From: Tetradesmus obliquus
Lineage: Eukaryota > Chlorophyta > Chlorophyceae > Sphaeropleales > Scenedesmaceae
Direction: 5' to 3'
Assembly: GCA_030272155.1 (NCBI GenBank)
Contig: CP126197.1
Location: 2,232,001 to 2,296,000 of the forward strand
DNA: 64,000 nucleotides
Each line of letters begins with the position of its first letter. The stretch's first letter is position 1. The translations under genes and the position numbers were made by a program. The notes beneath the pieces were generated by a model. It was not told the origin of the DNA. It saw only the letters and a program-made list of their open reading frames with translations, and ran no database searches. Below, piece by piece: positions 1,976-64,000 of this stretch.

Positions 1976-2272
1976 GTGAGCTTGCTGCTGAGCAATCCGA
2001 CAGGCATGGAGGCCTTCATCAGCAAGGGCTTCGAGCACTTTGATGCAGACCACTCCGGATTCATCGAGTCACACGAAATCATGGCCTGCGTAGACAAAGT
2101 GCTGCATCTCGCTGGCATTGATCGGCCACACCACACACACATTGAGGGCGTGTTCAACAAGGTGGCGGGCTCCGACCAGCGGCTCGACAAGGGTGAGTTC
2201 TCACGGCTGCTGCACCTGCTGCTGGACCGCCTGCACAAGAGCCCCAACCCAGCAGCACCGCTGGCATTCTGA
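1976..2272 (+). CDS. EF-hand calcium-binding protein, C-terminal exon
   Basis: The likely last exon of an EF-hand protein, 98 codons plus stop if the acceptor tttcctgcag at 1966-1975 is used. The reading frame contains DADHSGFIESHE, a complete 12-residue calcium loop with acidic or oxygen ligands at positions 1, 3, 5 and 12, Gly at 6 and Ile at 8. A second helix-loop-helix follows, with loop VAGSDQRLDKGE. This second loop keeps the hydrophobic residue at position 8 and Glu at 12 but has Val instead of Asp at 1, so it probably binds calcium weakly or not at all. The protein ends 12 residues after a helix rich in Leu and His. The 5' exons were not found, so total length and partner domains are unknown. 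An ATG at 2005 could also start a short single-exon protein. It converges on the subtilase. Confidence 0.75.
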   Translation: MSLLLSNPTGMEAFISKGFEHFDADHSGFIESHEIMACVDKVLHLAGIDRPHHTHIEGVFNKVAGSDQRLDKGEFSRLLHLLLDRLHKSPNPAAPLAF

Positions 2273-2548
2273 GCCGCATGAGCGAGCGGGGGCATGAGCA
2301 GCGGCGGCGGCGCGGTTGTGATGGCGAGGCACACGAGCGCAGAAGCGGCGCAGCGGTGTCACAACAGCTGCGCGGCTGCACGAGTCAATCGACCCAGCGG
2401 CGGCGCTGTCAATGTGAGCGGCGGCAGGAGCAGCGGCGGTGGAATGGCGGCAGCCCAGCAGTAGGGGTGCAGAGTTGCGCAGCAGCTGAGCGACTGCACA
2501 AGTCGACCAATCCCGCGGCGGTTCTTGGAATGCGAGCGGCGGCAGGAG
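2216..2548 (+). repeat. Three degenerate tandem copies of the EF-hand gene 3' end
   Basis: The real gene end (2216-2285, including the stop) is followed by two diverged copies at about 2368-2430 and 2483-2548. All three share the pattern: Leu-Arg/His codons, cacaagag/cacaagtc, ccaa or acccagcggcg, then gagcggcggcagg after the stop region. The copies lie 3' of the stop and would be in the 3' UTR or intergenic DNA. See the findings on exon-end echoes. Confidence 0.75.
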
Positions 2549-3358
2549 CAGCGGCGGTGCAATGGGCAGCGCAGAAGGGGCTTCAGGCAGCTGCTGTGGT
2601 GCCGGAGCAGCGTGTTTGTGCACCAAGGGGAGGCGGTGAGGGTGCTGCTGTTCCTTCCAATGCAAGAGCCCTGCATGCTTGGTTGTTTGTGTGAGGACTA
2701 AACAAAACTTGTCACCTGCTGTGTCATGGCCCTGGTTGACGCTATTGGCCAGAAAAGAATCTATCACAAGGCCAGCGTCTATCTTACTTGCAGGTTGTGT
2801 GCAGCCAGTGGCGACAGCTTTGGGTCGGTTTTGTTGATTCAGCTGTGTGTTTGTGACTTGACTGCACAAAAAGGTGCCAGCTGGTTTTTGGGTACCAGGC
2901 GGAGCGCTCTGGTGTAAGCTTGCACAATACCATATGATATAACCATACGAAGTACCTGACAGGTGGAACCTGTTACTTTCTTAATCACGTGTGTGCAGCA
3001 AGCCTCAGACAGCTCAGAGCTGCAACTATCTCAGTCAAAACCACGGCAACATGGCGCTGCCATCAGCAAGGCAGCACATCATATGATGCATGCTTGTGCG
3101 CACTGCAATTGGCTGCAAGCTGCTGCGTACTCACAAAACGGTCATGTCGGCGCAAGTCCCTTGCCAGACGCCTGCCAACCTGGATTAAAGAAAAAAAATG
3201 CAGAAGCAGCTCTCAATAAGCCCCGTTCCACAGGCATTCGCTGCAAGCATATAGCACAACCTGGCACATGCGCGTAAATACGCTAGCAATATAATACATT
3301 GCAACTCAAGCACTGGACTGCGTGTAATCACGCTATAAGCAGCACTGCATAGCGCATG
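2549..3358. other. Convergent intergenic region, no gene seen
   Basis: Separates the + strand EF-hand gene from the - strand subtilase gene, so it should hold both 3' UTRs. I see no conserved coding motif, RNA gene or clear repeat beyond the end of the exon-end copies. Confidence 0.5.
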
Positions 3359-3449
3359 CTACCGCTGCCAGAACTTTGACCAAGCTAGGTACCCATAATA
3401 TTTCTGGCTGCCTAGCCCCCTTGGCGTAGCAGGGTCGCCTGCAAAGCCA

Positions 3450-4559: not shown

Positions 4560-7311
4560 CATGAACACAACATCAACAACAGCAACGGTGCATCAGCGCG
4601 CAGCACCCACCCGCATCTGAGGCCTCCTGGAAGACGTCGCACACCACCTCCAGCGCGTCGCTGTAGTCATCTTCCGCAGGTGACACGTAGCTGGCGATGC
4701 TCAGGTTGATGACCTGGCGGCAGCAGCAGCAGCAGCAGCAGCAACAACATGGCCACACCAGTTTAGCAAAAGCAATTCAACTGGAACGCTGTGGCGACCA
4801 ACGTGCAGTAAATTTGGCAAAGCAGAGCAGCAGATAACTGCTATATGTGCAACCCGCTGATCCGCTCAATGCTTGATGCTGGCCCTTGCATGCACGCTAC
4901 CCTACCACCGCAGCAGCAGCCATGGCATGCCAGACCATGACAGCCAGATGGTCAGCACCAGCGCACCTTGATGTTGAGGGCATGTCCTTCATTGCTGGCA
5001 GCCCACTTGACTGCATCCAGCGCATCTGACAGTGCGCCTGCAGCCGCAGCAAGGGTTGGCATACGCGGCAGCAGCTGATCAGCAGCTGATTACAACACGT
5101 TCGTCATGCACCTGACACTCTGCTTGGCGGGAGTCAGTCAGTAGGTTTGCTGTGACATGTCTGCTGTAGGCTGGCTCAGTCATGCTTTGAAATCTTCACA
5201 AGGGCACACTGTGACAATGTCAAATCTTCACAAGGGCACACTGTGACAATGTCAAATCTTCACAAGGGCACACTGTGACAATGTCAAATCTTCACAAGGG
5301 CACACTGTGACAATGTCAAATCTTCACAAGGGCACACTGTGACAATGTCAAATCTTCACAAGGGCACACTGTGACAATGTCAAATCTTCACAAGGGCACA
5401 CTGTGACAATGTCAAATCTTCACAAGGGCACACTGTGACAATGTCAAATCTTCACAAGGGCACACTGTGACAATGTCAAATCTTCACAAGGGCACACTGT
5501 GACAATGTCAAATCTTCACAAGGGCACACTGTGACAATGTCAAATCTTCACAAGGGCACACTGTGAACAATGTCAAATCTTCACAAGGGCACACTGTGAA
5601 CAATGTCAAAGCGTAGCTCCAATGGGCGTTGCAACCTGGCAATATGATCAACAGGCGGCGAAGCTGGCATGTAGCAGCAGCAGCAGCAGCAGGAGAAGGA
5701 GCAGCCGCAGCAACAGCAGCTGCAAAACAACAGCAGCAGCATGCATACCTTGCCCGGCGCCATCTAGCACTTTAAGAGAGTAGATTGGCACGCTTGGAGC
5801 AACGCCCACAACACCTGGTACACAGCCATCAAAGTTGGGTAGTAAGCACACCCAGCAGAAGCAGCAGGGTGAGTCTGAGTGTTGCGCGTTCATCATCTGG
5901 CCAGCAGTCGCTGTAAACATTGCCAGCAACAAGTGGCTCTGCAGTTAAAGCATCTGTGCAGCACAGCCAAGCATGGTTGTATCTGTGCATAGCCGCTGGG
6001 GCTTTGCAGAAGCCTCTGCACCACACTCTTGGCTGGCTGCACAAGCTTCACTTGCTTGTACACAGCACACTGCGGCAGTCAATGTGAATTGGCCGATGCT
6101 GGAGATGGTCTCCACTGCAGCATTGTGCTGTGTGCTCACCTGCTCCGTTGTTGCGTGCCCCAATGATGCCTGCAATGTGTGTGCCTGCGGGCAGCAAACA
6201 GGCACAGCATACACCAGTTACTTGCAGGACACCAGCAGTCCATGAGAACATGTAGCCAGCAGCACTCACGCTCAGATGTTCTGAAAAGGCCACCAGCTGG
6301 TGGTGCTGCAGCAAGCTTGTAAAGCGGCCATGTCTGGCATACACACCATGGCCCTGTCCTTTGCCCTTCTGTAACTTCGCTCCCTGAACAGTAATGCTTC
6401 AGGTATCAACTGGCGCACGCACCATGGCCGTAAAAGTCGACGCCGGCATCGACCATGTCGCCGGGCCGGCCCTCCGAGGGCTCGCGCACCCACGTCTGCC
6501 CTCCCGCGTACGCCAAGTCCGGGTGCGTCGAGTCGACCCCGGAGTCGACGACTGCCACAGTCACCTGGATAAACCGGCAGCAACAGCAGCAACAGCAGCA
6601 GCAGCAATCAGAGGAAGCAGCAGCGCTGGTCAGGCGTGCAGCGTATAAGCAGCAGTCTGCAGCAGAAAGACAGCTGTCCTTGCAGTTGGCTGCCATCCCA
6701 TGTCATGTGCACGCTGCTCACCAGCTCAACCAGCCACAACCCAGGAGACACAGAGAAACTTACAATCACCAGCATTAAATATATATGTGCTGTTCTGCTT
6801 CAAAGAGGTGGGCATTATGATTCTGTAGCCCACCTGCTGCATCTTGTCAACTGCCGGGCCGCCAGTAACTGGCACCGCATTTGCAGTAGCTCCTTCGATG
6901 AAAGCCACACCCACTGGCACCTGCTCGCCTGCAGCCAGGGCTTCCCTACCCAGCAGCCCCGCTGCCGGCGGCAAATCAAAATTTGAATTCAAATTTGAAT
7001 TCAAATTGCTTGGATCGTTTGAAGCTGGCGGGGGCGCCACCCGGTTGTCCCCAACAGTTTGTCGCCGCCGCCTTCTGCGCCTAGCAGGGCTAGGGCTAGG
7101 GCTTTGCAAGACTGCATCAGGGCTGGTAGGGCTGCTGGTGGTGTAGGGTTTGACCAGACCGCCACTGGTCTCCTTTACAACTGCACCATGTGCGGGCTGG
7201 TCAAACGAGCTCCTGCTGCTGCTGCTGCCGCCGTCATCTTGTGGAAGCATCTGCAGCTCATCATCATTGTCGTTATACTGATCATCGTATGGCTGATCGT
7301 ACGCCAACTCT

Positions 7312-8501: not shown

Positions 8502-11193
8502 TGGGTGCTTTCAACATGCCAAATGGCGATGGTAAACAATGTAGGGATTGGGCAAATAGTTGCTGGCTGCTGCTGCTGCTGCTGCTGCTGCTGGCAGCAC
8601 CAGCAGTGATGCTGATGCTGATGCGGCGTGCTCTGTTTAGGCATCCAGACTACAAATCTTTTTATTGTTCAACCAGGTTCACCTGGCGTCAGTATCTTTG
8701 TCCCCAGCTGCTCGTTTGGGTTGGGCAGCTGCGCCAAACCCCGCAAGGACCCGTGCTGCTTGCTGGCGCCGAATGAGGACTCACCAGCCGACAATTCAAA
8801 AGCGTACGAGTTGCAAAGCAGCAAAATGTACAGCACAGCGCACGTGCACGGCACAGCAGGAGGCGCTCCCCGTACTGCTCTCCCCGTTGCCCTGCTCATC
8901 TCATTTGTCTAGCCAGAACCCAGCATCGCCGCTTCCTGAAATAACTTGCTAAGGCTGTGCGTGTTTGCGTAGAGCTCGTGCAGTATGGTCACTGCTTGCG
9001 ACGAACTGAAGGAGCCGCAGGAACTTGTCTATCGTCGTACTCAATCAGCTGCATTATCTGCTTTGTTGCACTACATAAATGACGTGAAAGATAGCATTTG
9101 AAGACGATACCTCATTGTTGCTTCACGAACAAGCTGCTGATGCTGCTTTGTTGAAGGGGGTCACTCGGTCAATGCGCCGGGGGGCACCAGCTGGTGCTGC
9201 AGCCGAGACAGCAACACAGCCCACCTGCTTTAAAGGATTTCCTCTCACAGCTTACCGCCAGTCAGCCTAACACGTTGGTGACCTACAGGAAACGGCTTCT
9301 TAAACGCAATCCTTGCGCCACCTTTTGATGTGTTGTGTGCTGCCACACCAAAGCCCCGCCACCACCCCAAGCTGACACACCATCTGCAACTTCACAGCAT
9401 CAAAACTCAGGCTGATGCACCCGTGTGATTTGCACGTCAGGTATAGACATGAAGCCTACTGATCACTTTCATATTCTCCGGCAGCAATGCACCTCCATGG
9501 TTAGTCAGGCGTCCCTGCATCGTCAGCTATCATAGACGGCGCCTGGCACAGCAGCACTTCAGAGAAGAGACATGTCCTCAGTTCCTCGCAATCCAGGAGC
9601 CATATACATTCAAATGTTACATGTGCAGCCCCAGCAGCGCGCAACATGTGCAATCAGCAGCCAGCCATGCTCGAGATTTCATGCACACATACCGTAGCAG
9701 AGTGAAATGCTACCCCAGTTTATGCAGTTGCAGCAGTTGCCACCATCCTGACAGAAGAAGCAGACTCTACAGCAAGCAGCACACATTTCAGCACTGCTTC
9801 AAGGCACAGGAGGCACGCTGTGAACGAGGTGTGGTGCAGGAGCCATGGGTACATAGGACAATACATCAACAACCCGCACGCCCATTTGATGCGGCCCAAG
9901 CCCTGGAGGGAAACTACCCCCCATGACTTAATTTAAAAAATGCCATGAGCCACACATGCAGCTCAGCTGTGTGGACAATGTCACCATCCATACAGAAGCC
10001 GGGGCATTATAGCTACAACATGCATGGGGCAACAACTGCTTCGACCCAGTGCACCTTCGCCCGAACCCACAGCACCCGTGCAGTGCCTGCTGTAAAGTGC
10101 CCGCAGCCGTAAGTGCAGTGCATGACGGCATTTCAACCTCCTGCTGTACACCACAGCAGTGGCACTCCCCACATACACAGATACATATTGAACACAAATA
10201 CAGTCGGAGAACATGCCACAGGCTGTTGAAGCTGGCAAGTGTTACGCCCATCAACACCTCACACGCACCAAAATGCCATTGGTGCTGAGGCAGCAGGTGG
10301 TTGTGTCACTGCTGTCACGGCTGTATCAGGGACACATTCTCTTACAACTGTGCGGCCCGCATGTGGCATGCTCGCCTGGTAACCAACAGCAAACACGCCA
10401 GCACACAACTTGCACACATCACACCAGCTGCAACCACTGGTTACCCAACAGCAGCAGGATGGTGCTTATCACAGTGCTTCTTGTTGCGCAGGCAGATCGA
10501 ACTTGTGTGAGGCGGCAGCCTGCGGCCTCACACACGTCCGAGCTGCATACGCGACAGGATGCACGGTGTCAAGCACCATCCTGCTGTTGTTGTGCGGCCA
10601 GGTGTTGACCATGGTCAAACACTGCTTCAGCCCCACGTGCTGGGGTGCCTGTGCTGCTGCCATGCCATGCTCAGTGCATGGTTCCAGCATCACTGCTGTC
10701 GGTATGCGCAGCACACATCACTGGCACAAAACAGCAGTGCATTGCCCACAACACACAAAGACTCACTGAAAAAGAACAGCCAACAAACACACTTTATGTT
10801 GTCACTGAATGTTCCAGCTGCAGCTGCAATTTAAGCAGCGGCAGCCGCAATGTGAGCAGCAACTGCAGTCCACTCAACAGCAGCATCATGTCCACCAGCA
10901 CAGAGGCATTTACCTGCAGTGAGCAACATCACAAAGCATTTCAGAGTGCAGGCAGCCAACCGGCCCACGACTGAAGCATGCCCGCAGGCCCGCACACACC
11001 ATGACCCGTGCCGCGCTGCACACTCACCCGCCAGTGGCACACCACACAAGGCAGCCAGTGCGTGCTCACTGCAAACCACCACCAGGCGCCGGCAGAACGC
11101 AACACCACAGCAAAGGCATCCAGCAGGACCCCAATAGCAGCAGCAGCGCCCATCCTTAACACAGCTGCACATAAGAACCCACAGCAGCGCAGC
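8502..11193. other. Intergenic region between LOV gene 3' end and subtilase 5' end
   Basis: Both flanking genes are on the - strand, so this should contain the LOV gene's 3' part and the subtilase promoter and 5' UTR. I looked for Ser/Thr kinase motifs that would extend the LOV protein into a phototropin and found none. A hydrophobic frame at about 10905-10790 (-) and a Trp-rich frame at about 11130-11020 (-) are unassigned and could be additional 3' exons. The 10431-10608 foldback lies here. Confidence 0.5.
10431..10608. other. Imperfect long foldback (hairpin), candidate small-RNA precursor
   Basis: Left arm 10431-10518 is an imperfect inverted repeat of right arm 10520-10608, with almost no loop at about 10519. 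Matching blocks include agcaggatggtgctt (left) against its reverse complement at about 10572-10586, tgtgtgaggc near the centre, and caac[c]ac.tgg at the base. I estimate by eye roughly three quarters identity, with a few small gaps. An imperfect stem of this length is the shape of plant and algal miRNA or siRNA precursors, or of a decayed foldback element. No coding frame explains it. Confidence 0.65.
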
Positions 11194-14100
11194 TCACGTC
11201 GCCCCGAGGCCATCCACACCCGGCGCGCTGCGCTGCCGCCTGCCAGGCAGCTCCGTCGCGCTCGCGCCACTCGTCCCAGCCACTGGCAACAAGCCACTGC
11301 CAGAGCTGGTGCGCCTGCTGCCTCCATCCACACTGCCGCCCCTTCCAGCAGCAGCAGCAGCAGCAGAGCCGCCATCGATTGACAAGCTGCGTGAGTAGCC
11401 GCGGCGGGGCAGGCCCGCGCAATCCATGGAGCGGCGCAGGCCGCCGGCTTGGCCGCTGAGGCCGCGACAGGCCACGCGCACCGCGCCTGTGACGCTGTAG
11501 TGCGCCATGCGCGTGCTCAGGTGCACCTTGCCTGGCGCTGCAGGTACAAGAAAACGCAAAACAGCGGACACCAGGGAAAATGTCAGCACTGTGTGACGCT
11601 GTAGTGCGCCATGCGCGTGCTCAGGTGCACCTTGCCTGGCGCTGCGGGTGCAGAAAAAGGGCAAAAGTGCGGACAGCAGGGATTGTTCAGCAACACAGCA
11701 GATTGAGATTACTGTGTGACGCTGTAGTGCGACATGTGGCTGCTCAGGTGCAGCTTGCGGGGCGCTGCGGGTACAGGCACAGTTGAAGGCAGCAGGGGTG
11801 GAGCAGTGACACAGGTCGGGTGCAGAAGCAACAAAAGGCAGCAGGCAGCAGAGGGTGCAGCACTACAGACAGACATCATAAATACCAGGCTTGCACGCAA
11901 CGTTTCGTTCACGTTTCGTATTGTGCGTTCCGAACGCGTTCTGAACGTTCCCGAAATTGCCAGTTACGTGTTTCGTGCAACCCTGATATATACGTGAATA
12001 TCATACAAGATGGGCAGTCAAAACAAAGCAGCAGCAACATCAGGCAAAGCTAGCCACCAGGAGATGCCGATGAAGTAAAGAGGCACAACGACAGACAGAC
12101 AACCAATGCAGAAGCAAACACACGGCAGAGGTAGCCCCCGCCACGCACCTGTCGGCACGCCGTCTGCAGCAGCAGGCCCATTCTCCTCCTGCAGTGCTGC
12201 CTCACTCACATCCAGCTGAATGCCAATGAAGTACTCCAGCTTTCCCTCTGCATCCCGCATGGGCGCCACATGCAGCGCATTCCAAAAGGGCCGGCCACTC
12301 TTGCTGTAGTTGAGCAGCGTGACTGTCACTGCCTGGGGTGGGTCTGCGGTGAGGGCGGTGCGCAGCTGCTGCACGTGCTCCGGGTTGGTGGCGGGGCCTT
12401 GCAGGAAGCGGCAGTTGCGACCCACCACCTCCTCCCTGCAGCAGCAGCAGCAGTAGAGGCAGAGCAAGACAGTAATGATAAGCATGATCTGTAGGCAATG
12501 GCCGGCAGCACAAGCATCCCAGCATAAGCGCAGGCACGCATGCTGGCTAGTTGCATACGGAGTCAGCTGAGATACACTTTTAAGGCAGCTTGCTGTACTG
12601 CCACTGCACTGCAACTCGAGAATGCAACACAAACCCATACCGCTGCTCTGCCAACAGCGCCCTACTTCAAGAGGTTCTAGGGAGGCCAACCCCCATGCAC
12701 CACACATAGACGCACGTGCATGCACACCAGCCGCAGCACTGTCAGCCAGCACGAAGGCCTGCTGGATGCAATTGCCACTGCCAGCCCGTTATAACCCACC
12801 AACACCTTCTGCGCTGCCACATCAGCCTCCCAACACAATCGCCACGATGCATCCTCACCAGCCAGGTACTACTGTGATGCGACTAGGCTACGTTGCGTTA
12901 CATTGGGACTGTGCTTCCGCCGCACCTGCTGTATTCCGTCAGGCGCAGGAACTGCGGGCTGGCGTGTATGATGGGGCAGTCTGGCAGCCGCGGGTCAGCC
13001 AGCACGAAGGCCTGCTGGATGCGCATCAGCGGCTGCAGCAGGCTGCTGGGCAGGGCGCACGCCGCCTGAGGGTGGCCTGCGAAAGGCAGCAGTACACCAT
13101 ATCACTGTGAGGATATTTCGCGTCGTGCCAGCGGACAAGCGAGGGTGAGTTGAGGAGGGTATAACAAGGGAGGAAAAGAAGGAGGGCAGCGACAAGGGTA
13201 GGGAGCGCACTGGATTGCTGTATCGTGTGTTCAGTATCGCTCACACTGCGGGCAGCTGCTGCTGCTGCTGCTGCTGCTGCACCGCATGGAGGCAGAGGAC
13301 ATACAGCCAGTACTTTTGTGTTTTGCACAGCAGACCAAATAAAGGCAATCCACAACTGCATACAGCTCCTCCTGCAGCTTGCCACTCACATTGCTGCACT
13401 GCATCGTGAATAGCACATGCGTGCTGCACCTCCTGCTGCACCACATCTTCGTCCTCGGACAACACATGCTGCTGCTGCTGCTGCGCTGCTGCTCCAGCTG
13501 GCTGCTGCTGCTGCTCTTGCGGCTGCTGTGTAGCAGCCTGCTGCTGCTGCTGCAGCTGTGCGGCAACATCTTGCTGCTGCATCAGCACATCGCACATCCT
13601 GCAGCCAGCAGCCTGGCCAAACGCCACTGCACACGCAGCAGGACAAGCAGGCACACACAAACACAAGCACGTCAGCATATGCAGTGGAAACAGAGCAAAT
13701 AATGGGTCACATATATGTTGTCACAGGTGCAGCTGCCACATGCCGGAGGCAAGCCCACAGGCAATTTCAAGAAACCCTGCCCTTGGCAGCTGCTGCAAAC
13801 CCTGCCTCATAGCTTTACACAAGCGACCAGCTGTTGTTTCCTGCAGGATAACAAACTGTCAACAGTCCCTGTGCTTTGCACAGCTGCCGCCCGCTCACCC
13901 GCTGCCTGCTGCTCCTGCAGCGCCCCTGGTGTCTGCAGCATGTCTGCTGCCTTGCTGACGTCTGTCTGGATGCCCACATAGTGTGTGACAATCCCCTGGT
14001 CGTCCTGCAAGCAGCAGCAGCCACGAACACAGCACAGCAGTGGTTACAGCACAGTAGCGCACACACAGTGTGTGACAATCCCCTGGTCATCCTGCAGGCA

Positions 14101-21923: not shown

Positions 21924-29970
<8,047 letters not shown>

Positions 29971-36294: not shown

Positions 36295-36355
36295 TTAAGC
36301 TATGCTGGCCCCTGACAGCAGCGCCGCCGCCAGCAGCGGCTCCAGGCAGCCTGCC
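35985..36355 (-). repeat. Four copies of the UTP15 3' end
   Basis: The end of the last UTP15 exon with its stop (about 36295-36355) is repeated, with decay, at about 36215-36250, 36112-36168 and 35988-36040. Shared + strand core: gctggcccctg, cagcagcggct, ccaggcagcc. The 36112 copy even repeats aagctatgctggcccctg, which contains the stop region. Confidence 0.8.
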
Positions 36356-40314: not shown

Positions 40315-40350
<36 letters not shown>

Positions 40351-45104: not shown

Positions 45105-45160
<56 letters not shown>

Positions 45161-47580: not shown

Positions 47581-47587
47581 CGGTAGC

Positions 47588-47622
<35 letters not shown>

Positions 47623-49867: not shown

Positions 49868-52800
49868 TGACCACATGCTTGGATTGCCAGATATGCTGTT
49901 TGCCGGCTTACAAGTAAAACAAGTAAAACACAGTGTTTGGTGCATGGCGAGGACTTGTTGATGGCTGCTGCTGCTGCTGCTGCTGCTTCACTTGCGCAGC
50001 GAAACAACGCTATCATGCAAGACACTGTGATTGCCCGCCCCGCCCCCTCCCCCTGCACCACACACACACACTACCCCAACGCATGCAAGCATTTGCCACA
50101 TCTCCTCGCAGCCACATGTTCTCACTTTGAGTTCCACTTTCAGCCGCTTCACCATGATCTTCAGCGCGCTCAGCCTCTCCTTGGGGATGACGCTCAGCAC
50201 AGTGCCGGGCCTGCCCATGCGCCCCGTGCGGCCAGCCCTGCGGATGTACTGCTGCTGCCCAGCTGGCAGAGACTCCACCTGCACATGGCAGGCCACACAA
50301 CACAAGGCAGGCCATGCAGCGCAGCCAGCACGTGCACGAGAGCAGCTCTTGCGTAAAATCACCGCCTAGTTTCATTCATAACAGATCTGTTGATTTGCGA
50401 GGCCCTGAATGGCGCAGTTCGGCCAGATGAGCAGGAAGCCTTCCTATTGCTGTGAGCCAGGTGGAGCAGGTTCTGCGCTTGTCAGCTGGTCACAGGCGCT
50501 GTGCATGCCTAGCACCCAAACCCACAGCAACAGTGTTTGATAGCGAGCCTCCCCATTCACTGAGAGCACCACAATTCACTTTCTGGAAGTCCAGCCCAAG
50601 CCGGATGCACCTGCTAGGGTTGCACTTGCCCAAAGAGAATCACATTGCAATAGCCAGGTTTAGCTGCATACATCACTCACCGAGAGCGCCACATCCACCT
50701 CCTGAAAATCCAGCCCCAGGCCAAATGCATCTGCTGGGGTTACACTGGCCCAGATAAGTTCAAATGTTGGCGTTAAATCACGAACCGGACTCACCGAGAG
50801 CACCACATCCACCTCCTGAAAATCCAGTCCCAGGCCAAATGCATCTGTCAGCAGCAGCGCCCGCAGCTTCCCGCTGTTGAAGCGCCGCAGCAGGTTAGCC
50901 TTCTGCTGGGGCTCCAGGCTGGAGTGCAGCGCGCCCAGCTGCACGGTCAACGGCAGGTCAAACATGGTCAAACATGCGGTCAAACGGCTGGTCAAACATA
51001 TGGCGGGTTAAGTGCAGCGGTGGGTCATTGCTTGTTCTCAATCAGCTAGTAGTTGCAGTGGGGTTGCCGTAGCAAGATGACGCTAGGGTTACTAAGCAAA
51101 CACACAGCAGCAGCAGCACTATCCGCATGCTACTGCTGCTCGGTTGTTATGCCTGCAGCAGCCTTGCAGGCAGCCCATCCTTCATGCAGCCTACTTGTCC
51201 ACGAATGTCACAAACCGACGTCCGCATGTAGCTGCTGGCTGGTCAAGCATCTGTCTGGTCAAACACCTGGTCAAACGTTGCACACAGCAGCCTCACCTCT
51301 GGTGCAGCTGCTGGCTGGTTAAACATCGGTATTGTCAAACACTGGGTCAAATGTTGCACACAGCAGCGTCACCTCTGCGTGCAGCTGCTGGCTGGTCAAG
51401 CATCTGTCTGGTCAAACATTGGGTCAAACATTGGACACAGCAGCGTCACCTCTGCGTGCAGCTGCTGGCTGGTCAAACACCTGTCTAGTCAAACAACCGG
51501 TCAAACAGAGCACACAGCAGCCTCACCTCCACGTGTAGCTGCTGGCTGGTCAAACATCTGTCCGGTCAACTGTCCAATCAAACATTGCACACAGCAGCCG
51601 CACTTCTGCGTGCAGCTGCTGGCTGGTCAAACATCTGTCCGGTCAAACACCTGGTTAAACAGAGCAAACAGCAGCCTCACCTCTGCGTGTAGCTGCTGGC
51701 TGGTAAAACAAATGTCCGGTCGAACGTCCAATCAAACATTGCACACAGCAGCCGCACCTCTGCATGCAGCTGCTGGCTGGTCAAACATCTGTCTGGTCAA
51801 ACATTGGGTCAAACAGTGTGCACAGCAGCCTCACCTCCGCGTGCAGCTGGCTGCTGCGCTGCAGGCGCAGTTGCAGCGCCCACACGTTCTGGCGTTGACC
51901 CACAAACACAAGTGCCTTGCAGCCTTTGTCCAAGTAGGTATTGAGGCAGCGTGTGAGATGCTTATCCACGGCGTCGTGTCTGTCTGAAGAGTACAGCAGC
52001 ACCTGCAGGCAGGTTAAAACACGGGCAGACAAAGAAAATGGTAGTCACCGGACAGCAGCATATGTTTCAGTGCTTTATGTGTTTGCAGCATGTGGTGGTT
52101 CTAGCGGTATGGAGCATAACACAGCTGCCTTTGCTACATACATGCTGTTCTGCGGGTGTTCTCCTGTGCAGCGCAAAGACGGCTGAAACTGCCGGATGAA
52201 ACTCCGGCAATGCATGCAGGCAACGCCCATGCTACAACACTGCTGCTCGTCAGATCTAGCACCTGAGCAGCATGCAGAGCCATCCGCACTGACGCTGAAA
52301 TGCAAAAAAGCACGCAGAAGCACACGCATGTTCAAGCACAGTTGTGCGACACCAGACGAATGTGCTCTGTGGCCTTGGCCAAGCAACAACCAAATAACAA
52401 AACAATGTTTGCGGTAATGCGCATCCACCTGCTCATTACACACCTGGTGTTGGATATGTTCAGGCAGCATGAGATGGCGGTCCGCCCGGTTGTACACTTC
52501 ACTGTCACCCGAGGCGTACGCTGCTGCAAGCTCCTGCTGCTTGCTGGCATCACCACTGCTGCTGCTGCTGCTTGCTGGCATCACCGCTGCTGCTGTTGCT
52601 GCTGCTGCTGGTGGTGCAGCAGCAATCATAATGGGCTGTGTAGCAGCCCAAGCAGGGGCAGCAGCCAGCGTGCTAGGCTTGAGCCCGGCAGACACCAGCA
52701 GCACCTGATACGCTTTCAACACAGTGCGAATGGGGTCCCCTGGCTTACTGCCACCACCAGCACGATCAACATCAGCATCCGCATCATCAGATACCTCAAA

Positions 52801-52991
52801 CTGGCTGCCTGTGTTGATGTACCGCGCATGCTTTTCCAAGTCCATGTCGATGCTGTGCTGGCCCCTGGCTGATTTGTGCTTCCTGCTGCCGTAGTTCTGC
52901 AGTGTGCGCTGGTCGTTGGCCCGCAATGCTGCCAGCAGGCGGAACACCTGGATCGTGTCTGACATCACCAGCAGCTTGTCTGCCTGCGTGG

Positions 52992-53026
<35 letters not shown>

Positions 53027-53631
53027 CGACAGGTGTTGTGAACCTTGATCCTGGCGTAAGCTGTTTGTGAGGCAGTAAAAGTGTGTCTGGTAATATCGGT
53101 AGCTTGTCTGCCTCAGTGGTGGCGGCAGGGGCAGCAGCAGCAGCAGCAGCAGCAGCGGGCAACATGCCATACTGTGGTGGTGGCGTCACCTCCTCTAGCA
53201 CCGACACCAACCGCTCAGTCCAATGTATGAACTTCGTTTTTTGTGTGAGGGGGCTGCGAGGGCATGGTGCAGTCACTATGATTGCCGAGGCATGCCGGCC
53301 ACATGGGTAACCACCCAGATATTGAAAGCAAGGATTCAAGTGCAGGTCAAAACCCTAGGGGGCCGCACCCCTTCCTGCACCAGCACCCTCCGCTCAAATT
53401 GTTTTGAGGTTTGACATGACTTTGCTGTCATCCTGTTCGATATTGCTTCCAATATAAACCTCAAAACATAATAGCAATTTTGAACAGGATGACAGCAAAG
53501 TCATGTCAAACCCTAGGGGCCCGCACCTCCTCCAGCACCAGCACCATCCTTTCGTCCCGGCTGCTGCTGGCGCTGCTGCTGGCAGCGTAAGGGAAGGCGG
53601 CATCAAAGGCACGGCCCTTGGTGATGACCTG

Positions 53632-53698
<67 letters not shown>

Positions 53699-54467
53699 CA
53701 GCGTGTACACCACGTCAGGTCAGGGTCATATGCTTTACTTTGGTCAGTCTGTTGTACGGCAGGTGATGCAGTGCTGGGCATAGCTAGCAGCCACCAGGGA
53801 AATGCTGCCAAAATCTGCTGCACTCTTTTGAACTCTTTTGAACTCAAATTGTTTGCACGCCCTGGTAGAATGAAAAGCAACCGTATCACGTCACATGGCG
53901 ACATGCATGTAACATGTTATACCACATGTCTAACAGTTGCCAATGACTGACCTTGAGCAGGCGGCCGGGTGTCGCTACTACAATGCAGGGATTGTGCTGC
54001 TTCAGCGCCTCCAGCTGCCGGAAAGGGTTGGCGCCACCTGGGAACAAACGCACAAATAACAAAAGGCAAACGTGTGTGTATGTTGCTTCTGTATGTCACA
54101 TAACGGCGTAGCGCTACACGCAATTGGACACCCACATGGCATTGAACTGGCTCCACCTGACACTCGCCACTGCTCCACGGCTCGTATGCCGAGCACAGCT
54201 GCTGCTGACAATGCATGAAATTGACAGATAGAACAGGCTATCACAGACGGCCTCCAGCTTCACGCCACATCAGCAGTAGATCGCACAGCCTCTGTATTAC
54301 TGCACTCAACAATAGCCGCTAGATCACGCCGTTTGCGCCTTCATGCTGCTGCTGTCACTACTCACCCACGAGGGGCTGCACTTTGCTGCTGAAGCCCGGC
54401 AGCAGGGCACGCGCAGCACGCAGCACCTGCATGCACAGCTCCTGCGTGGGGCAAATCACCAGCACCT

Positions 54468-54548
<81 letters not shown>

Positions 54549-54721
54549 CAGCCGTGGGGCGCAGCACGCAGCACCTGCATGCACAGCTCCTGCGTAGGAC
54601 ATATCACCAGCACCTGCAGCAGCAGCAGCAGCAGCAGCAGCATCAACAGCAGCACAGCCGTGGGACGCAGCACGCAGCACCTGTATGCACAGCTCCTGGG
54701 TGAGACACAAAACCAGCACCT

Positions 54722-54755
<34 letters not shown>

Positions 54756-56282
54756 TTGCGGTCAAGGCCGTCACACAGACGTGCGCCTAAATATTGCAGG
54801 CGAATGCGTGCCGGTGTGAAGGCCGCACAGCTGCACAGCAGCATGAGCATCTCTAACGGAATCAGTTTGCGGAGCCTGATTGCCTACTACTCTTGTGACA
54901 AGACAAAACCACCACAGCCTTAGCACCAAAGCAATGCTGCAGCCTATCAGGCCTGAGTCTGCCATGCCTGTTGTGTGTTGGTGTGTTGGTTGATGTGTTG
55001 GTGTGTTGGTGTGTTGTGTGTTGGTGTGTTGGTGTGTTGGTGTGTTGTGTGTTGGTGTGTTGGTGTGTTGTGTGTTGGTGTGTTGTGTGTTGTGTGTTGG
55101 TGTGTTGTGTGTTGTGTGTTGGTGTGTTGTGTGTTGGTGTGTTGGTGTGTTGTGTGTTGGTGTGTTGTGTGTTGTGTGTTGGTGTGTTGTGTGTTGGTGT
55201 GTTGGTGTGTTGGTGTGTTGGTGTGTTGGTGTGTTGGTGTGTTGGTGTGTTGGTGTGTTGTGTGTTGGTGTGTTGTGTGTTGGTGTTGTGTGTGTTGGTG
55301 TGTTGTGTGTTGGTGTGTTGTGTGTTGGTGTGTTGTGTGTTGGTGTGTTGTGTGTTGGTGTGTTGTGTGTTGGTGTTGTGTGTGTTGGTGTGTTGTGTGT
55401 TGTGTGTTGGTGTGTTGGTGTGTTGGTGTGTTGGTGTGTTGGTGTGTTGGTGTGTTGGTGTGTTGGTGTGTTGTGTGTTGGTGTGTTGTGTGTTGGTGGG
55501 TTGTGTGTTGGTGTGTTGTGTGTTGGTGTGTTGTGTGTTGGTGGGTTGTGTGTTGGTGTGTTGTGTGTTGGTGTGTTGTGTGTTGGTGTGTTGTGTGTTG
55601 GTGGGTTGTGTGTTGGTGTGTTGTGTGTTGGTGTGTTGTGTGTTGGTGTGTTGTGTGTTGGTGTGTTCAGGTGAGCACTGCTGAGCTGCACCACAGCCAG
55701 CAGCAGCTGCTCTAGCCTGCATTCATTTGATCAGCCACCGCTCCACCCATGCCATGCCTGCACCACACCACACAAAACTTCACTCACCCTGCCGTGCCTG
55801 GGTGGCTGCTTGCAGGACGAGGGTGATTGCAGGACGGGGGTGCTTGCAGGACGAGGGTGATAAGCTGCCACACAGCCAGCAGCAAGCGCTAAAACAAAAG
55901 GAAAAGAAAACGATTATCAACTGCTCACCCTGCCGTGCCTGGGTGGGTGCTGCTTGCCAGGCAGCCATGGCTGCAGCTCTGACAGCAGAGGCAGCAGGTA
56001 GGCCAGCGTCTGCAGAGGCAGCAACACAGCAGGCACGCAGTAATGCAGGTGCATGAGCTCTGCCAGCACACTGCGGAAGCTGCCATAGGGACGCCTTGGA
56101 TTGCTTGGAGCACATACATCAAGTAGCGATGGGTGTGAGCCATGCCTCACAGCATGTGCTGGCAGCATGTGCTGCTGCACATCTGCAGGTGGTGGGGGCA
56201 CTCCTGCTGAATGACAAGTTGTATCGCTGCCGCTGCTGAACACAACAGCTCCAGCTGGTGGTGCCGCCACCACAACAACTGC

Positions 56283-58019: not shown

Positions 58020-59370
58020 ATGGAATCCTCACTGGATGACGCCACAAAAGCCAGCGCAGCAGATGTCTTGCGTGCTTCAAACATCAAGGAGGTGCAGCCG
58101 GCAGCTCTGTTTGATGCTGCACATGTGGAGGAGTGGAGCCCTCAGCTGGTGGCCTACTTCCCTCTGGGGTGTGCACTGGCAGCAGCGCGCTTCGCGGCGT
58201 GGATTGCAGGTGAGCTTGCAGGAACGCTTGCAGGACAGCTGTCAGAAGCTGCTTGCAGGAAAACTTGCAGGACAGCTTGCAGGAAGCAGCGCCATCAGAC
58301 AGGGATTGCCAGCAATGCGATTGAGTCGGGTCAGAGGTTGTGCATGGCAGTGACTCAAGCTGCCTATTGCACTCTTGTGATGGCTAACTGAAACCGCTGC
58401 TGCAAATATCAAAGTCAACAACATCAAATAGTTAGATGACAGCTCAGAAGCTTTCAAACTCTCTGTGTCTGCTGTTGCTGCTGCTGCAGGCATTGCGCTG
58501 GATGCTCCCTGGTTCCGGCAGATGCCAGTCATCAATGCGTACATGGCGCTACTCGGCGTCGAGGTGACCTGGCGCAACACACACAACATCCCGCAGCAGC
58601 GGCATGTGCTTGTCAGCAACCACGTCAGCGTAGGTGACCTGCTGATGCTCTTCCAGCAGCCACAAAGATATGTGCACCTCATAACAAGTGCACTGCCGAG
58701 GCAGGTGTATGGCACACAGAACCTGCCAGCCATCCTGCAGCCTGCAAACAAGGAGACGTACCTGGCCATAGCAGCACAGCAGCAGCAGCAGCAGCAAGTG
58801 CCGCTGCTGCAGCCGCAGCACCATCAGCAGCTGCGGGTGGATCCAATGGCAGCCGGCAGTTTTGGTACTGCCTCCAGCAGCAGCCACCACAGCAGCAGCA
58901 GCCACATAGACTCACCAGAACACCACCACCACCACCAGCAGCAGCAGCAGCAGCATAGCGCCGGCTGGAGCTCCGCGGACTCTGCAGCCGCAGCAGCATC
59001 AGTGCACGTGTTTCCCGAAGGCGGCATGACAAATGGCAGCGGCATGATGCGCTTCAGTCGGGGCTTCATGCTCTTTGCAGACCAGCTGCCTGTTGTGCCA
59101 GTGGCACTGCGGCTCAAAACAGCCTTCCCAGAAATCAAATGCCACACACTGGACTCGCCATTTCTAGCAAACCTGTTTTGGTTCAGCTTCCAGCCATGGA
59201 CAGAGATCGAGGCTGTTGCGCTGCCGCCAATGCGGTTGGAACCGGGAGAAAGCAAGGCGGCGTTTGTGCAGCGCGTGCAGCTGGCGATTGCGCAGGAGCT
59301 GCAGGTGTGGGTGGCTGAGTTGAACATCCAGCAGAAGCGGGCCATGGTGCAGCAGCAGAAGCGGCGCTGA
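58020..59370 (+). CDS. PlsC-type glycerolipid acyltransferase (AUP1/GPAT-like)
   Basis: Membrane-bound acyltransferase expected to transfer an acyl group to a lysolipid or glycerol-phosphate acceptor. Exons: 57972-58209 (coding from the Met at 58020, or from an unseen upstream exon) and 58490-59370; from 58020 this gives 356 residues. Motifs: a hydrophobic segment YFPLGCALAAARFAAWIAG; VLVSNHVSVGDLLML, which contains the catalytic HX4D box; FPEGGMTNGSGMMRFSRG, the FPEG acyl-acceptor block; and VVPVALRLK. The region after it (LANLFWFSFQPWTEIEAVAL) resembles AUP1-type proteins. Between the HX4D and FPEG boxes about 75 low-complexity residues (Gln, His, Ser, Ala) are inserted. The C-terminus is basic and Gln-rich; no CUE domain was seen. 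Substrate and organelle cannot be decided. Confidence 0.85.
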
Positions 59371-59617
59371 GTTGGCGCTTTGCTGCTGCTGTGGCGCTGG
59401 CTTTCCTGCAGGCTGCTGATCCTGCAACTACTGTGGCCGCTTGAGATTGCAATGGCGTGGACATGTGTGCAGGATTTGTGGTGCAGGGCTGAGGTTCAGC
59501 ATCGCCGTTTCCGCAGGAGCTGCGGGTGTGGGTGGCTGAGCTGAACATCCAGCAGGATTGGGCCATGGTGCAGCAGCAGCAGCAGGGCAAGGCAAAGCAG
59601 CAGGCGCGGCGCTGAGC
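59275..59617 (+). repeat. Duplicated 3' end of the acyltransferase gene
   Basis: The last 90 bp with stop (59282-59385) recurs at about 59510-59632: gcaggagctgc.ggtgtgggt, ggctgag.tgaacatccagca, gggccatggtgcagcagcag, then cggcgctgag[c/t]tggcgctt including the TGA. The spacing is about 230-245 bp. Confidence 0.93.
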
Positions 59618-60691
59618 TGGCGCTTGGTGTGCTGCCGGCTGCTGAACCTGCAAGGCTGCGGCCCACTTGGAACCTTCTTGCAGTGTTGCAGGGCTGGCGT
59701 TGTGGGCTGTGGGTGGCAGGTGGCAGGTATTGGGTATTGCAGTTTTACTTTGGTTGTGATCGATTGAAGGCTGTGCAACAGGCTGCGGATTTGTCAGCTG
59801 TTGCTGCCACTGCAGCTTGGCGTGTCTTGCTTGGTGACTGTGTGGCTCCTATGCTGGTGACAGGGCTGCGATTGCTGACTGTGTACGAGTGTGGCTTGGA
59901 ATGGAGCTGCCTGCCGCCGCAGGAGCCAGCAGGATTGAGCAGGAGGGCAGCATGCTGCAAATTTAATGCTTACTATGTTATGCAAAGAGGAAGAGGGGCT
60001 GGGGTGTGGTGGCATGCGCGGCTGAGGGGTGTATGTCAGGGCAGTGCTCTGGAAGCCCACCAGGAGCCACGCTGTTGGCTCCTGCTAGGATGCCGCTGCA
60101 GTTGTGGCCAGCTGCTACGCTTGTTCTCAGAAACTAGCAAGTTGCTGCTGTGAAAGCCCTGACCTAAAGCGCATCTGTGTGCCTGCAGCACACGCTAGGG
60201 CTGGTTGTCAGTAGGCTTGTGTGGGCGTGGTCAGTTGCCACAGCCATTACTCCTGAGTCAGCAGGTGTGGTGACAGGTCAGCTTGACCTGCACAATGACA
60301 GCGCCGTGTGGCAAGTATGAGCAGAACTGTGTGTTAATGCATGTGCTGTCTCAGGCTGACGTGTTATGACGCGGTTGTTCCTTTGCACATTGGTATCATG
60401 CCCAATGCTCCTCCAGGAACCTCTTCCAGGGTGCTAGCAGGCTGCTGCCGACAGGTCCCTTGTTTCTGTGCACTACGAAGCACCAAACTGCATGCAGTGT
60501 TACAATTGAACCTCAATTCAGGCACTGTCTGCGCAGCTTTGGTGCTGCTCAGGACCAGGTTGTGCTGTGCTTGCGTTCAATAGTCATGAAGCGCACGGTT
60601 ACTGATCGGGACTGGGACTGGGACTGTGCACTGTCTTTGTGGACCTGCTGTGCACACACGAGCTTGCCTGCCAGCTGGCTCCTGCTGCAGC

Positions 60692-61175: not shown

Positions 61176-61706
61176 ATGTCGGTCGCTTCAAGCCTGCTTC
61201 TTACGGTGAGATCATTGTTCAACCCACAGCTTGGCAGCCATCGTGTGCGTGCACCTTTCGCTGCTTTCGGAAGCCCTTTCGTATCCTGACGCTATCTGTT
61301 GCGTTGCCCTTGCAGTTCTCCCCGTTTTTTGCAGCGGTGACGATTACCTTTGGGGCCATGAAGTATGCAGACGAGAAGAAGGCGCCGTTGTGAGTCAGCA
61401 CCGCCAGCATGGACACTTCTTGCCAGCTCAGTCCCGCCCATGCAGCAGCCGCGCGAGCGTCGGACTTACTGATCTTCGTTAGTATTATGATTGCGTGCGT
61501 CTCAGCGTGCATGCCGCATGCAACTGCTGTCCTGTAGATACAATCTCGGCCAAATCTTGGTGATGACCTGTCTGCTGCTGCTCGCCTGCTGCTTGCTGCC
61601 TTGCAGGAAGCACTGGGCTCTGCAGAGGCGCCTGGAGGCCGATAAGGCCTTCCCAACACAGAACAAGCGCCTGGACTTCACCATGTGCCTGGCTCACGGC
61701 ACCTAA
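61176..61706 (+). CDS. Small single-span membrane protein, 67 residues, three exons
   Basis: Exons: 61176-61205, 61316-61389, 61607-61706, with consensus gtgag donors and ttgcag acceptors; they join in frame to 67 residues. The N-terminal half is one hydrophobic helix (SSLLLTFSPFFAAVTITFG), followed by a charged tail: MKYADEKKAP, then KHWALQRRLEADKAF and a C-terminal CLAHGT. This small size, short N-terminus and single helix with a basic tail are typical of accessory subunits of mitochondrial inner-membrane or thylakoid complexes, but I do not recognise the family. The TGA at 61390-61392 would end the protein early if intron 2 were retained; it lies inside the gtgagt donor. A TATA-like site lies upstream. 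The consistent splice sites and in-frame joining argue that it is real. Confidence 0.6.
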
Positions 61707-63094
61707 GCAGCAGCCTTGCTGGCATTGAGCCAGCTGTTCAGCGGCTGGGGCGGTTGGGAGTTTGGTGCGCCTCCATGCAGCAGCTGTTCTCGTGGCATGG
61801 CAGGTGCAAAGCTTATTGTCACCGGATATCAGCTTGTTGATACAGCAGCAGGGATTGTAATGGCTGCTGCAGCTTGAGCTCTAGGTGTGATTCAACAACA
61901 TTGTTGATATCGATGCACCAGGACGGCTTATCTGGTTGATTGTTGGTGTGCCGCCACCCTTGTGGCTTTTGTTTCTATGCCGAATGTAGTCGGCGCAGCA
62001 GCTTGCATGCTTTGGGACATCGCGCAGTGGTACAGCTTTTTTGGTGCCCACGCTTTTGCTCTTCAAGCAGTTACAAATATATTTCCAAGCACCACTGCTC
62101 GTGCATGTGCGTGCATGTTTTGACTGCAGGCTTCAGCTTAGCACAGGTTGCCCCTGCAGCCTTTTTTGTGTTTTGACTGTTTCAGACTATACCAACGGCA
62201 GGTTTGACCATCATCTTTCCATCCTCATGTTTTGTGTGACACTGTTTGCTCACCACTTCAATCGCTGCCCTGTCGTTGTAGCTGTTCAGTCGTTCATGCT
62301 GACAGCTGCACATTGCAGCGTTGCAGCTCTTTTGGATGCTGTTGGTGTGTTCAAGGTGCCAGCAGCTCACCAGTTGGAGGTCGAGCTGTTATAACAACAT
62401 AACATTGGATGCATTCCTATGCTTTGATCGGACGATGCAGCAGGCCCCATGTATTTCAGCTCGCGTGCTGCAACATGCATTGCATTCGAGATTGGTTGTA
62501 GTTTAAGGGCAAGATGCACAGCATATGCATCTGCCTTGCTGCATTGTCAGGGCATTGCTGCAAGTAGTTACAGGCATGCGCGCCCCTGCGGGCTTGCCTG
62601 TGGTTCGTGTGGCGTGCATTTAGAACCAGGACCAGTAGTACTACGTTCGATGCTGGTGCCTTTGCTGCTGGTGCCTTTGCTGCTCAGATGGACACTGCAC
62701 TGCTTGGCGGGTTTTAGAGGCCCTGCTATGGTTGACGGCAGTGGTTGCAGTCATAAAGGTGGTGGACAGTTTTGGTTGCGCTCCAGCTGCGGTGGCTGCT
62801 GTTGCAGCAGGGTTCAGCAAGGTAACTTACAAGCATCGATGCTACATTTGAGCGGCGCAATGCCTCTTCACTTGTGACTCCCATTTAGTTGTGCATGTCT
62901 GCAACAAACAGCCGCAGATCTATAGCTGTCAAACTGTCGGCACCTCCTGTATAGGGTGTTGTGACGTGTTCTGCTGGTGAGGCACTGCCTCCCGCTCCCG
63001 ACAATTGGGCTTGCCCAATTGTGCTGTGGTAGCGAGCCAGTAGGATTCCGTCCCCCCTGATAACAAAAAAAAAACTGTCGAAACCGTTGGTCTG
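61707..63094. other. Intergenic region, no gene seen
   Basis: No conserved coding motif found. Contains a short stem-loop, acaattgggc (63001-63010) and its reverse complement at 63013-63022 with a 2-base loop, and a run of ten A residues at about 63064. The stem-loop sits 73 bp beyond the stop of the right-edge gene on its 3' side, so it could belong to that transcript's 3' end. Confidence 0.45.
63001..63022. repeat. Short perfect stem-loop
   Basis: 10-bp arms acaattgggc / gcccaattgt separated by tt. Function unknown. Confidence 0.8.
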
Positions 63095-64000
63095 TCAGCC
63101 GTGGCACTTGTGCAGTGCTTCGGCAATGTAGAAGCGCTGCCCTGAGCTATGCAGAAACAACTGCACGCACAGCTCTTCCAGCTTGCCCGGCTGCGCCTGT
63201 AACAACACACAATCCGCAGGCGCTGTCTGCTGTGCAGCCCTCAGCCGGTCATCTGCAGCGACTGCCCGCGCAGCTCTGCCAGAGGCAGGCAAGTGCTTGC
63301 AAGCTGGCAGGACAAACCATGGCGCCCCATTTCTGCTCTCAAGCGCTGTTGTCCATGACATGGCCCCTGCGGAGCTGTTGGTAACAGCGTTAAGCGTGCC
63401 TCATCCGCCCGTCATCTGCAGCGCCTGTGCGCAGAGCTCTGCCAGCTTGCCCGGCTGCGCGTCGCCGCCCTGCTGCTGGGTGCTGGGCAGGGGCCCCTTG
63501 TGGCTGCTGCTGTAGTAGTGCTGCTCCAGCTCCGCTAGCAGGTTCTCTGCATGTTGGCAGAGTCATCATCGCATTTGGTGAGTGTGATCAGTTGCATTTG
63601 CATCTCATGTGCGTGTGTAAGAAGTAGAATGACGCTCAGGCAGCAGCTGAGAGGAGTGAGCACACGGCGGCGGCTGCACGACGGAGGCAAATGCTTATGG
63701 AACCTTGTGCTCTGCATACATGTGCCGCTTCACTCATAATGTGCCAAAGTAGCAAGAGGAGATCCAGATCTGTGGACAGCTGCTGCTGCTGCTGCAGCTC
63801 GGAGGCCTGTCATGTTCCCCTTGGAGTTGAAGCGTGCCACGCAGCAGCACGCACCGCCAATGCATGCAGCACGGCTGCTTCAGCAACTCCAATGTCTTTG
63901 TTTCTTCCGCACCTGCGTCCCGCTTTATGTGCTCCAGGCCGCGCGTGGTGTGGTAGGTGTCGCTGGTGAGCCGCTGCTGCACCGCGTGCACGTTGCCCAT
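63095..64000 (-). CDS. Unidentified gene, 3' part (runs off the right edge)
   Basis: Probable exons on the - strand: 64000-63913 (AVQQRLTSDTYHTTRGLEHI then KRDAG, ending in a gtgcgg donor), possibly one near 63815-63760, 63540-63400 (LLAELEQHYYSSSHKGPL), and a final exon ending at 63095 (GKLEELCVQLFLHSSGQRFY then IAEALHKCHG, stop). The segments GKLAELCAQ (63450) and GKLEELCVQ (63170) are copies of one exon junction, with a third decayed copy near 63255, so the true order of joins is unclear. The fragments look helical and charged, perhaps coiled coil. I do not recognise the family. The Met at the very edge may be internal. Confidence 0.35.
63160..63475 (-). repeat. Three copies of an exon junction in the right-edge gene
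   Basis: Shared + strand core: cagctct.ccagcttgcccgg with ctgcgc at 63172-63197 and 63437-63464, and gtcatctgcagcg.ctg..cgc followed by agctctgccag at 63247-63283 and 63412-63444. Spacing is about 165-265 bp. Confidence 0.75.

Follow-up and report, generated by a model that had tools for sequence, protein, structure and literature searches.

Duplication of short gene segments has been described in several settings that resemble, in part, what we report here for a stretch of 64,000 nucleotides from the nuclear genome of the green alga Tetradesmus obliquus (hereafter the window), where introns carry diverged copies, or "echoes," of the edges of their own flanking exons. Internal gene duplication, as Gao and Lynch reportedly set it out in 2009, involves gene segments that carry splice sites, and it is this inclusion of splice sites that the alga shares; it differs in that the alga's best cases lack a donor aligned with an acceptor, and in that its copies decay inside existing introns. 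Similarly, Vaughn and Bennetzen are said to have linked insertions in rice, in 2014, to tandem duplications arising from break repair. With duplications of this kind the echoes have in common a direct orientation, a local position, and the absence of a mobile element. How break repair produces small tandem duplications is being actively studied (the CST/Pol alpha-primase work, PMC8355091); there the insertions are described as short (<100 bp), whereas the alga's copies are mostly 75-174 bp apart, many of them spaced, and are biased toward genes.

That introns can arise by tandem duplication is itself established (PMC3443670, a review), and a potato RdRp gene provides an example of a tandem duplication that crosses an intron-exon boundary (PMC4974935). 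The likeness lies in a local tandem duplication across the boundary and in splice signals supplied by the parental junction; potato, however, offers one recent case that created a new intron, whereas the alga has dozens in 314 kb, inside existing introns. Tandem exon duplication and mutually exclusive exons also involve repeated exon sequence with splice sites, but the alga's copies are mostly partial exons, do not keep the frame, and reach up to about eight in number. What we describe is a dense variant of a known process.

The window is positions 2232001-2296000 of contig C7 in an assembly (G000) of 104,662,953 bases in 17 contigs, and has a GC content of 0.563. Together with five 50-kb samples from contigs C1, C2, C3, C4, and C5 it forms the main data set of 314 kb, and an extra 20 kb of C2 was examined besides. 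Local direct repeats with an offset or period of 60-600 bp and a bit score ≥45 were grouped into clusters, each classed by its best single pair; genes with internal repeats, perhaps repeat proteins, in which both copies look coding, remain inside the counts. There are 115 such clusters (window 36, C1 19, C2 2, C3 14, C4 11, and C5 33), and a single dinucleotide shuffle in 1-kb blocks of each of five regions left zero repeats at 40 bits. Direct local pairs number 240 vs 24 inverted ones, at most six of the latter not being self-palindromes, and the copies lie near their source, as local tandem duplication would leave them. The initial annotation of the window had supposed that local duplication is frequent, and these counts support it.

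Junctions and gene ends are all ab initio predictions from a gene finder written for this analysis, and the rotation and shift tests given below depend on the same models. The finder was trained on the window and the C1-C4 samples, C5 being the held-out sample, and learned the donor CAG/GTGAG and the acceptor TGCAG/G (slash at the junction); over the five regions (264 kb) it returned 48 gene models with 569 exons, GC donors being permitted. In tests on "strong exons," weak exons (259 of 569, five regions) were counted as noncoding. A Pfam family was found for 9 of 10 submitted window proteins or pieces, from 9 of the 12 window gene models (PAS/LOV, subtilase, PIG-S, PHO4, O-methyltransferase, UTP15/WD40, radical SAM, DEAD helicase, and acyltransferase), and in searches of PDB the UTP15, RlmN, and helicase products each aligned with relatives.

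In the alignments, the repeated unit is an exon edge together with its splice site. The first or last 80 bp of every exon were aligned to introns in all six regions. A copy of the flanking exon was present in 54 of 322 introns, or on 68 of 644 sides, vs 13 matches in 2582 comparisons inside one gene with introns at least two positions removed, and 12 in 6370 with introns of other genes. This comparison of neighboring with non-neighboring exons is the one the initial annotation had suggested, and, run on the 314 kb, it bears out the claim that introns contain echoes of the adjacent exon with its splice site. With full gene models, weak exons included, 33 of the 36 window clusters touch an exon-intron edge: 10 of 10 in UTP15, 6 of 6 in the helicase, 6 of 7 in PHO4, 4 of 4 in RlmN, 3 of 4 in the LOV/subtilase model, 2 of 2 in the acyltransferase, 1 of 1 each in the O-methyltransferase and the last gene, 0 of 1 in the EF-hand gene, and none in PIG-S. 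The periods of 77-270 bp claimed earlier are consistent with ours, among them a helicase array of about eight 77-bp units.

The explanation that we consider probable is that short local direct duplications arise often, are tolerated where they cross junctions, and lengthen introns. The nuclear genome would undergo frequent direct-orientation duplications, with copies typically 75-175 bp apart and mainly in genes; where a duplicated block lies across an exon-intron junction, splicing would still be able to use one copy, presumably the outermost exon copy. The surplus exon edge and splice site would then join the intron and decay largely unconstrained, and repeated rounds would yield introns that lengthen over time and fill with exon echoes and decoy splice sites. 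Break repair with fill-in, that is, tandem duplication by end-joining of staggered breaks, may be the cause.

The UTP15 gene (minus strand), with ten clusters within 7.3 kb, offers the clearest view. At 36889-37344, alignment pairs the acceptor edge of exon 36889-36974 with upstream echoes at 37138-37219, where 3 bp and 1 bp of the exon are missing, and 37257-37331. At 37552-37918, the donor edge 37816-37918 is echoed at 37552-37648, where TGA stands in place of the exon's CGA. The donor edge 38471-38545 and its echo 38202-38276 (together 38202-38545) match over 63 bp of exon and 12 bp of intron, and residual intron homology continues past the match at a level reached by none of 46 controls. 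At 38702-39208, the acceptor edge 38702-38789 aligns with echoes at 38982-39069 and 39135-39208, and human UTP15 aligns twice here to the same residues; at 39312-39601, the donor edge 39509-39601 and the echo 39312-39404 are 95% identical across a spacer of 104 bp in which no homology was detected. Self-comparison and alignment give a further acceptor edge with its echo at 39637-39792. Two more clusters (40105-40412 and 40580-40680) lie within 40105-40680, a head-to-tail array of the donor edge of exon 41200-41331 spans 40962-41264 with a period of 132-133 bp, and a donor-edge cluster at 36108-36351 sits close to the gene's 3' end.

Dispersed intron-borne elements (introners), reported from about 5% of the species that others have searched (PMC9860276), would appear as similar copies at many genes. 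We give them practically no credence here: every echo copies its own exon, and a comparison of a 4641-bp UTP15 stretch with the genome, the one stretch so compared, found only CAG/CTG-type tracts elsewhere, in three low-complexity stretches, among the matches listed (40 of 382 candidates scored).

The clusters are in excess at predicted junctions. Junction-spanning clusters number 72 of 115, against 41.5 ± 4.9 expected by rotation (0 of 400 rotations as high), and 71 of 108 against 50.3 when shifts are confined to the cluster's own gene (0 of 400 as high); in the held-out C5 sample they number 20 of 33 against 13.8 (12 of 500 as high). A gene-level difference in density was considered as the sole cause and rejected, because the excess persists under the within-gene shifts. 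Similarly, detection bias was simulated with 1500 constructs for each of three age limits, large deletions being excluded; it amounts to 1.18-1.31x, against a within-gene odds ratio of about 3.3, and we reject it as the sole cause, although by our estimate large deletions might add up to about 2x.

Once in place, the copies decay mostly as unconstrained DNA. At the three codon positions, 109 non-exonic echoes show 140 mismatches in 1822, 120 in 1824, and 330 in 1808 (.077,.066, and.183), and the noncoding part of the same matches has 1060 in 8384 (.126); the first two positions thus differ roughly half as often as noncoding sequence, the pattern that one constrained and one free copy would give. 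Gaps follow the same pattern, with 43 in 4454 exon-echo columns (0.97%) vs 217 in 10183 noncoding columns (2.1%), about half, and only 8 of 30 gaps in exon parts are multiples of three. It is worthwhile noting that echo-echo comparisons are also rich in third-position changes (21 of 187, 22 of 182, and 41 of 184); we do not use this as proof of constraint, because evolution of the exon between duplications can cause it.

Two further explanations were considered. If the copies were real alternative or mutually exclusive exons, both copies should be constrained and the frame kept. Although 71 of 91 copies are free of a stop or frameshift, many have an open frame and plausible splice sites, and the gene finder called several of them exons, the other 20 are disrupted, the frame is not preserved, and amino acid-changing differences number 205 vs 352 if random, which fits one free and one constrained copy. 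In addition, clusters occur at 0.42 per kb of gene across 49 unrelated gene models, and human UTP15 is without such repeats, having single copies where the algal model carries two or three. We therefore regard alternative exons as improbable in general, with a minority of real exons possible. The other explanation is that the arrays are artefacts of assembly, tandem arrays being difficult to assemble. The copies, however, mostly differ by 2-28% with individual changes, whereas artefacts would be near-identical, and the assembly consists of 17 contigs for 104.7 Mb; we hold this to be extremely improbable.

Splice sites in the echoes are frequently intact, as the initial annotation had expected of a supply of decoys: 84 of 95 echoes retain AG, and 61 of 87 retain GT. 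For the latter, 76 of 87 of the true donors paired with them have GT, because the gene models permit GC, and the mean site score falls from 6.43 in true sites to 4.80 in echoes for acceptors and from 4.32 to 2.81 for donors. Selective loss of decoy sites was considered and rejected, as identity at the splice dinucleotide is no lower than in its surroundings, a comparison that match ends bias upward. The suggestion that copies nearest the true site are usually best preserved is not supported, being true in 17 of 46 families (some arrays entered as both donor and acceptor), and neither is that of a graded fossil record.

Several observations weigh against the duplication reading that we favor, at least in its simplest form. 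The first group concerns duplications away from junctions. Noncoding-only clusters number 19 of 115 vs 50.3 by rotation, and 15 of 108 vs about 35 expected within genes; among recent clusters (identity ≥.92 over ≥40 bp) they number 2 of 19 vs 7.8, and one of these is a 32-bp minisatellite. Wholly exonic clusters number 8 against 8.2-10.9 by shifts, with a period divisible by three in 3 of the 8; at about the expected number, and so seldom in frame, they give no visible sign here that exonic duplications are lost. The second group concerns spacing and breakpoints. A spacer of at least 40 bp separates the copies in 46 of 82 clusters in five regions, the other 36 being contiguous or nearly so, and 36 of those 46 spacers have no residual homology to their flanks at p ≤.01. 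On the intron side, the match runs no more than 13 bp beyond the junction in 23 of 46 spaced junction clusters vs 3 of 40 contiguous ones, and yet exon-echo divergence is.110 in spaced clusters (35) vs.115 in contiguous ones (36). Finally, third positions exceed the others 2.56-fold, vs up to about 1.9 estimated for an echo that is strictly neutral. Rapid synonymous change, the presence of some real exons in the echo set, or a degree of refreshing through conversion would each be enough.

Here, the idea that duplications over a junction survive because one intact junction remains usable proves incomplete: it fails to explain why noncoding-only duplications, which should survive at least equally, are scarce. 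Clusters cover 0-4.3% of between-gene DNA and 1-28% of in-gene noncoding DNA; the limits of between-gene DNA are uncertain and its share of the sample is small. Given the shortage of noncoding-only clusters, the small detection bias, and the low coverage between genes, it would seem that duplications are linked to genes or exons from the moment they form, or that noncoding ones are lost faster than modelled. From gene to gene, cluster density is about twice as variable as a Poisson process would make it, and codon bias was tried as a correlate and rejected (Spearman correlation of density with GC content at third codon positions 0.002, p = 0.99, 49 genes).

Density may vary between chromosomes as well. 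C2 has 2 clusters in 50 kb (1.50-1.55 Mb) and 1 in 20 kb (4.00-4.02 Mb), about 2.5 Mb apart, which gives 3 in 70 kb vs 113 in the 264 kb taken from five other contigs, or about tenfold fewer, with C2 sampled at these two places only. Its GC content at the two places,.597 and.587, is the highest among the samples. Short tandem arrays (<75 bp) number 9 in 50 kb of C2, 9 in 50 kb of C1, and 13 in the 64-kb window, so that C2 specifically lacks the class of about 100 bp. A chromosome-level difference in duplication at C2 is possible.

This class has a characteristic size. The minimum period is 75-174 bp in 89 of 115 clusters. BLAST overlooks short periods (the 32-bp array at 5190-5610 was taken as period 64), and Tandem Repeats Finder was used as a check. 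It reported 88 arrays with units of at least 10 bp that are not low-complexity: 57 below 50 bp, 3 at 50-74, 23 at 75-149, and 5 at ≥200. With few arrays between the group below 50 bp and that at 75-149 bp, the class of about 100 bp stands apart from ordinary short repeats; the clusters themselves were chosen at offsets of at least 60 bp, a choice that passes over minisatellite unit sizes (~10-60 bp, in several copies). The initial annotation had called the echoes tandem, which holds in part: 36 of 82 clusters are contiguous or nearly so, and many of the spaced majority seem not to be plain head-to-tail tandems.

Over all 86 junction clusters, 40 are contiguous or nearly so and 46 have a spacer of at least 40 bp, and matches ending within 13 bp on the exon side occur in 2 of each class. 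Equal exon divergence in the two classes means that spaced clusters are not simply older, and greater age was rejected as the cause of exon-limited copies. One unlikely reading is that, beyond ordinary tandem duplication, exon edges are copied, or kept refreshed, up to the splice site, and that gene bodies and the chromosome set the rate of duplication. The copying part is prompted by the 23 of 46 spaced copies that stop near the junction with exon parts no more diverged, and the rate part by the low coverage between genes, the coverage of up to 28% within them, and the paucity of clusters on C2. If true, exon sequence would be broadcast repeatedly into its own introns, in a manner switched chromosome-wide.

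Gene conversion, with the exon overwriting the echo, or selection could instead keep the exon blocks of echoes similar, and old duplications would come to look exon-limited; we see this too as doubtful. In its favor, half of the spaced clusters match over the exon edge and splice site only, clusters with short intron-side matches (≤20 bp) show residual homology in 3 of 20 cases at p ≤.05 (9 of 20 at p ≤.2), there is the third-position excess, and noncoding-only pairs are scarce at every age. Against it, positions 1 and 2 in contiguous clusters differ at.08 vs.131 in noncoding sequence, a ratio of 0.61 where at least 0.5 is expected without constraint; gaps are not multiples of three; and the share with residual intron homology at p ≤.05 in those 20 clusters (18 spaced, 2 not) is no higher than in long-match clusters (7 of 45).

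Returning to frequent duplication across junctions, the step from duplication to longer introns deserves care. The median intron is 471 bp with an echo and 258.5 bp without, as expected if introns grow by duplication; the comparison is partly trivial, because an intron must be long to contain an echo, and the proposal made earlier that introns grow in this way is supported with this caveat. The mean intron of T. obliquus is given as 462 bp, vs 230-302 bp for four other green algae (PMC5966456). Among 248 scored introns we saw no clear sign of intron gain, only of growth in introns already present. New introns could arise from exon duplication by the Rogers/AGGT route, in which the copies supply donor and acceptor, a known mechanism (PMC3443670). 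A scan of the 248 introns against 1320 controls gave 3 vs 0 at score 60, 5 vs 3 at 50, and 9 vs 5 at 44, and in one case (C4 38756-38837) the intron end resembles the end of the upstream exon. In the 15 best cases, however, inspection by eye found no donor of one copy aligned to the acceptor of the next, the strongest being matches of echo to exon or repeats within an intron, and we judge this route very improbable here. Overall, the observations in the initial annotation are partly confirmed and their interpretation is partly supported.

Alongside UTP15, other genes of the window carry similar clusters. In RlmN (plus strand), one intron holds copies of both edges at its opposite ends, three of the donor edge and five of the acceptor edge with working copies counted: a head-to-tail array of exon end and donor at 45793-46188 (period about 123 bp, 3.2 copies including the working one), and five acceptor-edge copies at 46467-46980, the last being the exon's own. 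In PHO4 (minus strand), the donor edge of exon 29020-29145 is followed by two echoes at 28813-29057 (period about 96 bp), and acceptor edges with an echo lie at 28013-28253 and 27291-27519 (period 105 bp in the latter), with a further acceptor-edge cluster at 26381-26600 (period 119 bp). Models 21924-24445 and 25689-29970 resemble by eye the two halves of a PHO4 gene; the former, taken by eye as the C-terminal half, has a three-copy cluster at 23150-23508 (minus strand). A perfect (AC)n tract of 971 bp at 24508-25478 is apparently within a long PHO4 intron. PHO4 paralogs in the genome mostly show 40-69% identity, with one 38-residue stretch at 87%.

On the minus strand of the LOV/subtilase model there are an acceptor edge with two echoes at 11488-11776 and another with one echo at 13972-14130 (period 87 bp). 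The 32-bp array at 5190-5610, in an intron of this model, is a plain minisatellite of 13 near-identical units. The O-methyltransferase gene has a donor-edge cluster at 31387-31647 (minus strand, period 199 bp). The helicase gene (minus strand) has donor-edge clusters at 50554-50847 (period 120 bp) and 53338-53549, an acceptor-edge cluster at 52955-53156, the array of about eight copies at 51218-51849 (period 77 bp), which extends 15 bp into predicted exon 51835-52002, and, at 54411-54755, the CAG-rich acceptor edge of predicted exon 54366-54465 with its echoes. A 699-bp TGTTGTGTGTTGG-type repeat lies inside the helicase gene model at 54969-55667. In the acyltransferase gene (plus strand), an exon/intron block is repeated at 221 bp (59285-59653).

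In the EF-hand gene (plus strand; the label is given by eye), the C-terminal codons and the 3' flank recur at 2284-2577, beyond the stop at 2272, with about 74% identity. Copies of the 3' end past the stop had been claimed for five genes; with ab initio gene ends, this is the only one of nine window genes tested to have them, and at a stricter threshold over all regions they occur at 3 of 47 gene ends and at 0 of 367 controls.

Other repeats were also recorded. Self-palindromes appear in an inverted-repeat scan at window positions 30480-30553 (100% over 74 bp), 10446-10592, and 53408-53512. CAG/CTG-type runs of at least five triplets number 73 in the window (for example 44836-45747, 47421-48398, and 53633-53702), several of them encoding Gln, Ser, or Ala tracts in predicted proteins, including RlmN. 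In-gene repeats at C3 44-49 kb and C4 38-39 kb have both copies coding-like; they are repeated exon-intron units, perhaps of repeat proteins, and are different in kind from the echoes.

As to precedent, no description of this density, of the 75-149 bp group, of the gene bias, or of the exon-limited class was found among the entries listed in literature searches that covered few subscription journals. One scan of genome contigs for relatives returned 46 loci, bacterial and archaeal only and with no alga among them, which were left aside, and one scan of viral contigs returned none.

If the regions sampled are typical of the genome, T. obliquus would be a natural laboratory for intron growth, with about 0.4 clusters per kb of gene. 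It would also show how far splicing tolerates intact decoys about 100 bases from real sites, and how gene prediction of the ab initio kind goes astray. For the long mean intron of this alga (462 bp, PMC5966456), local duplication offers a cause that can be tested. Similarly, the preferred spacing, the gene bias, and the possible difference between chromosomes make the mutational mechanism directly testable.

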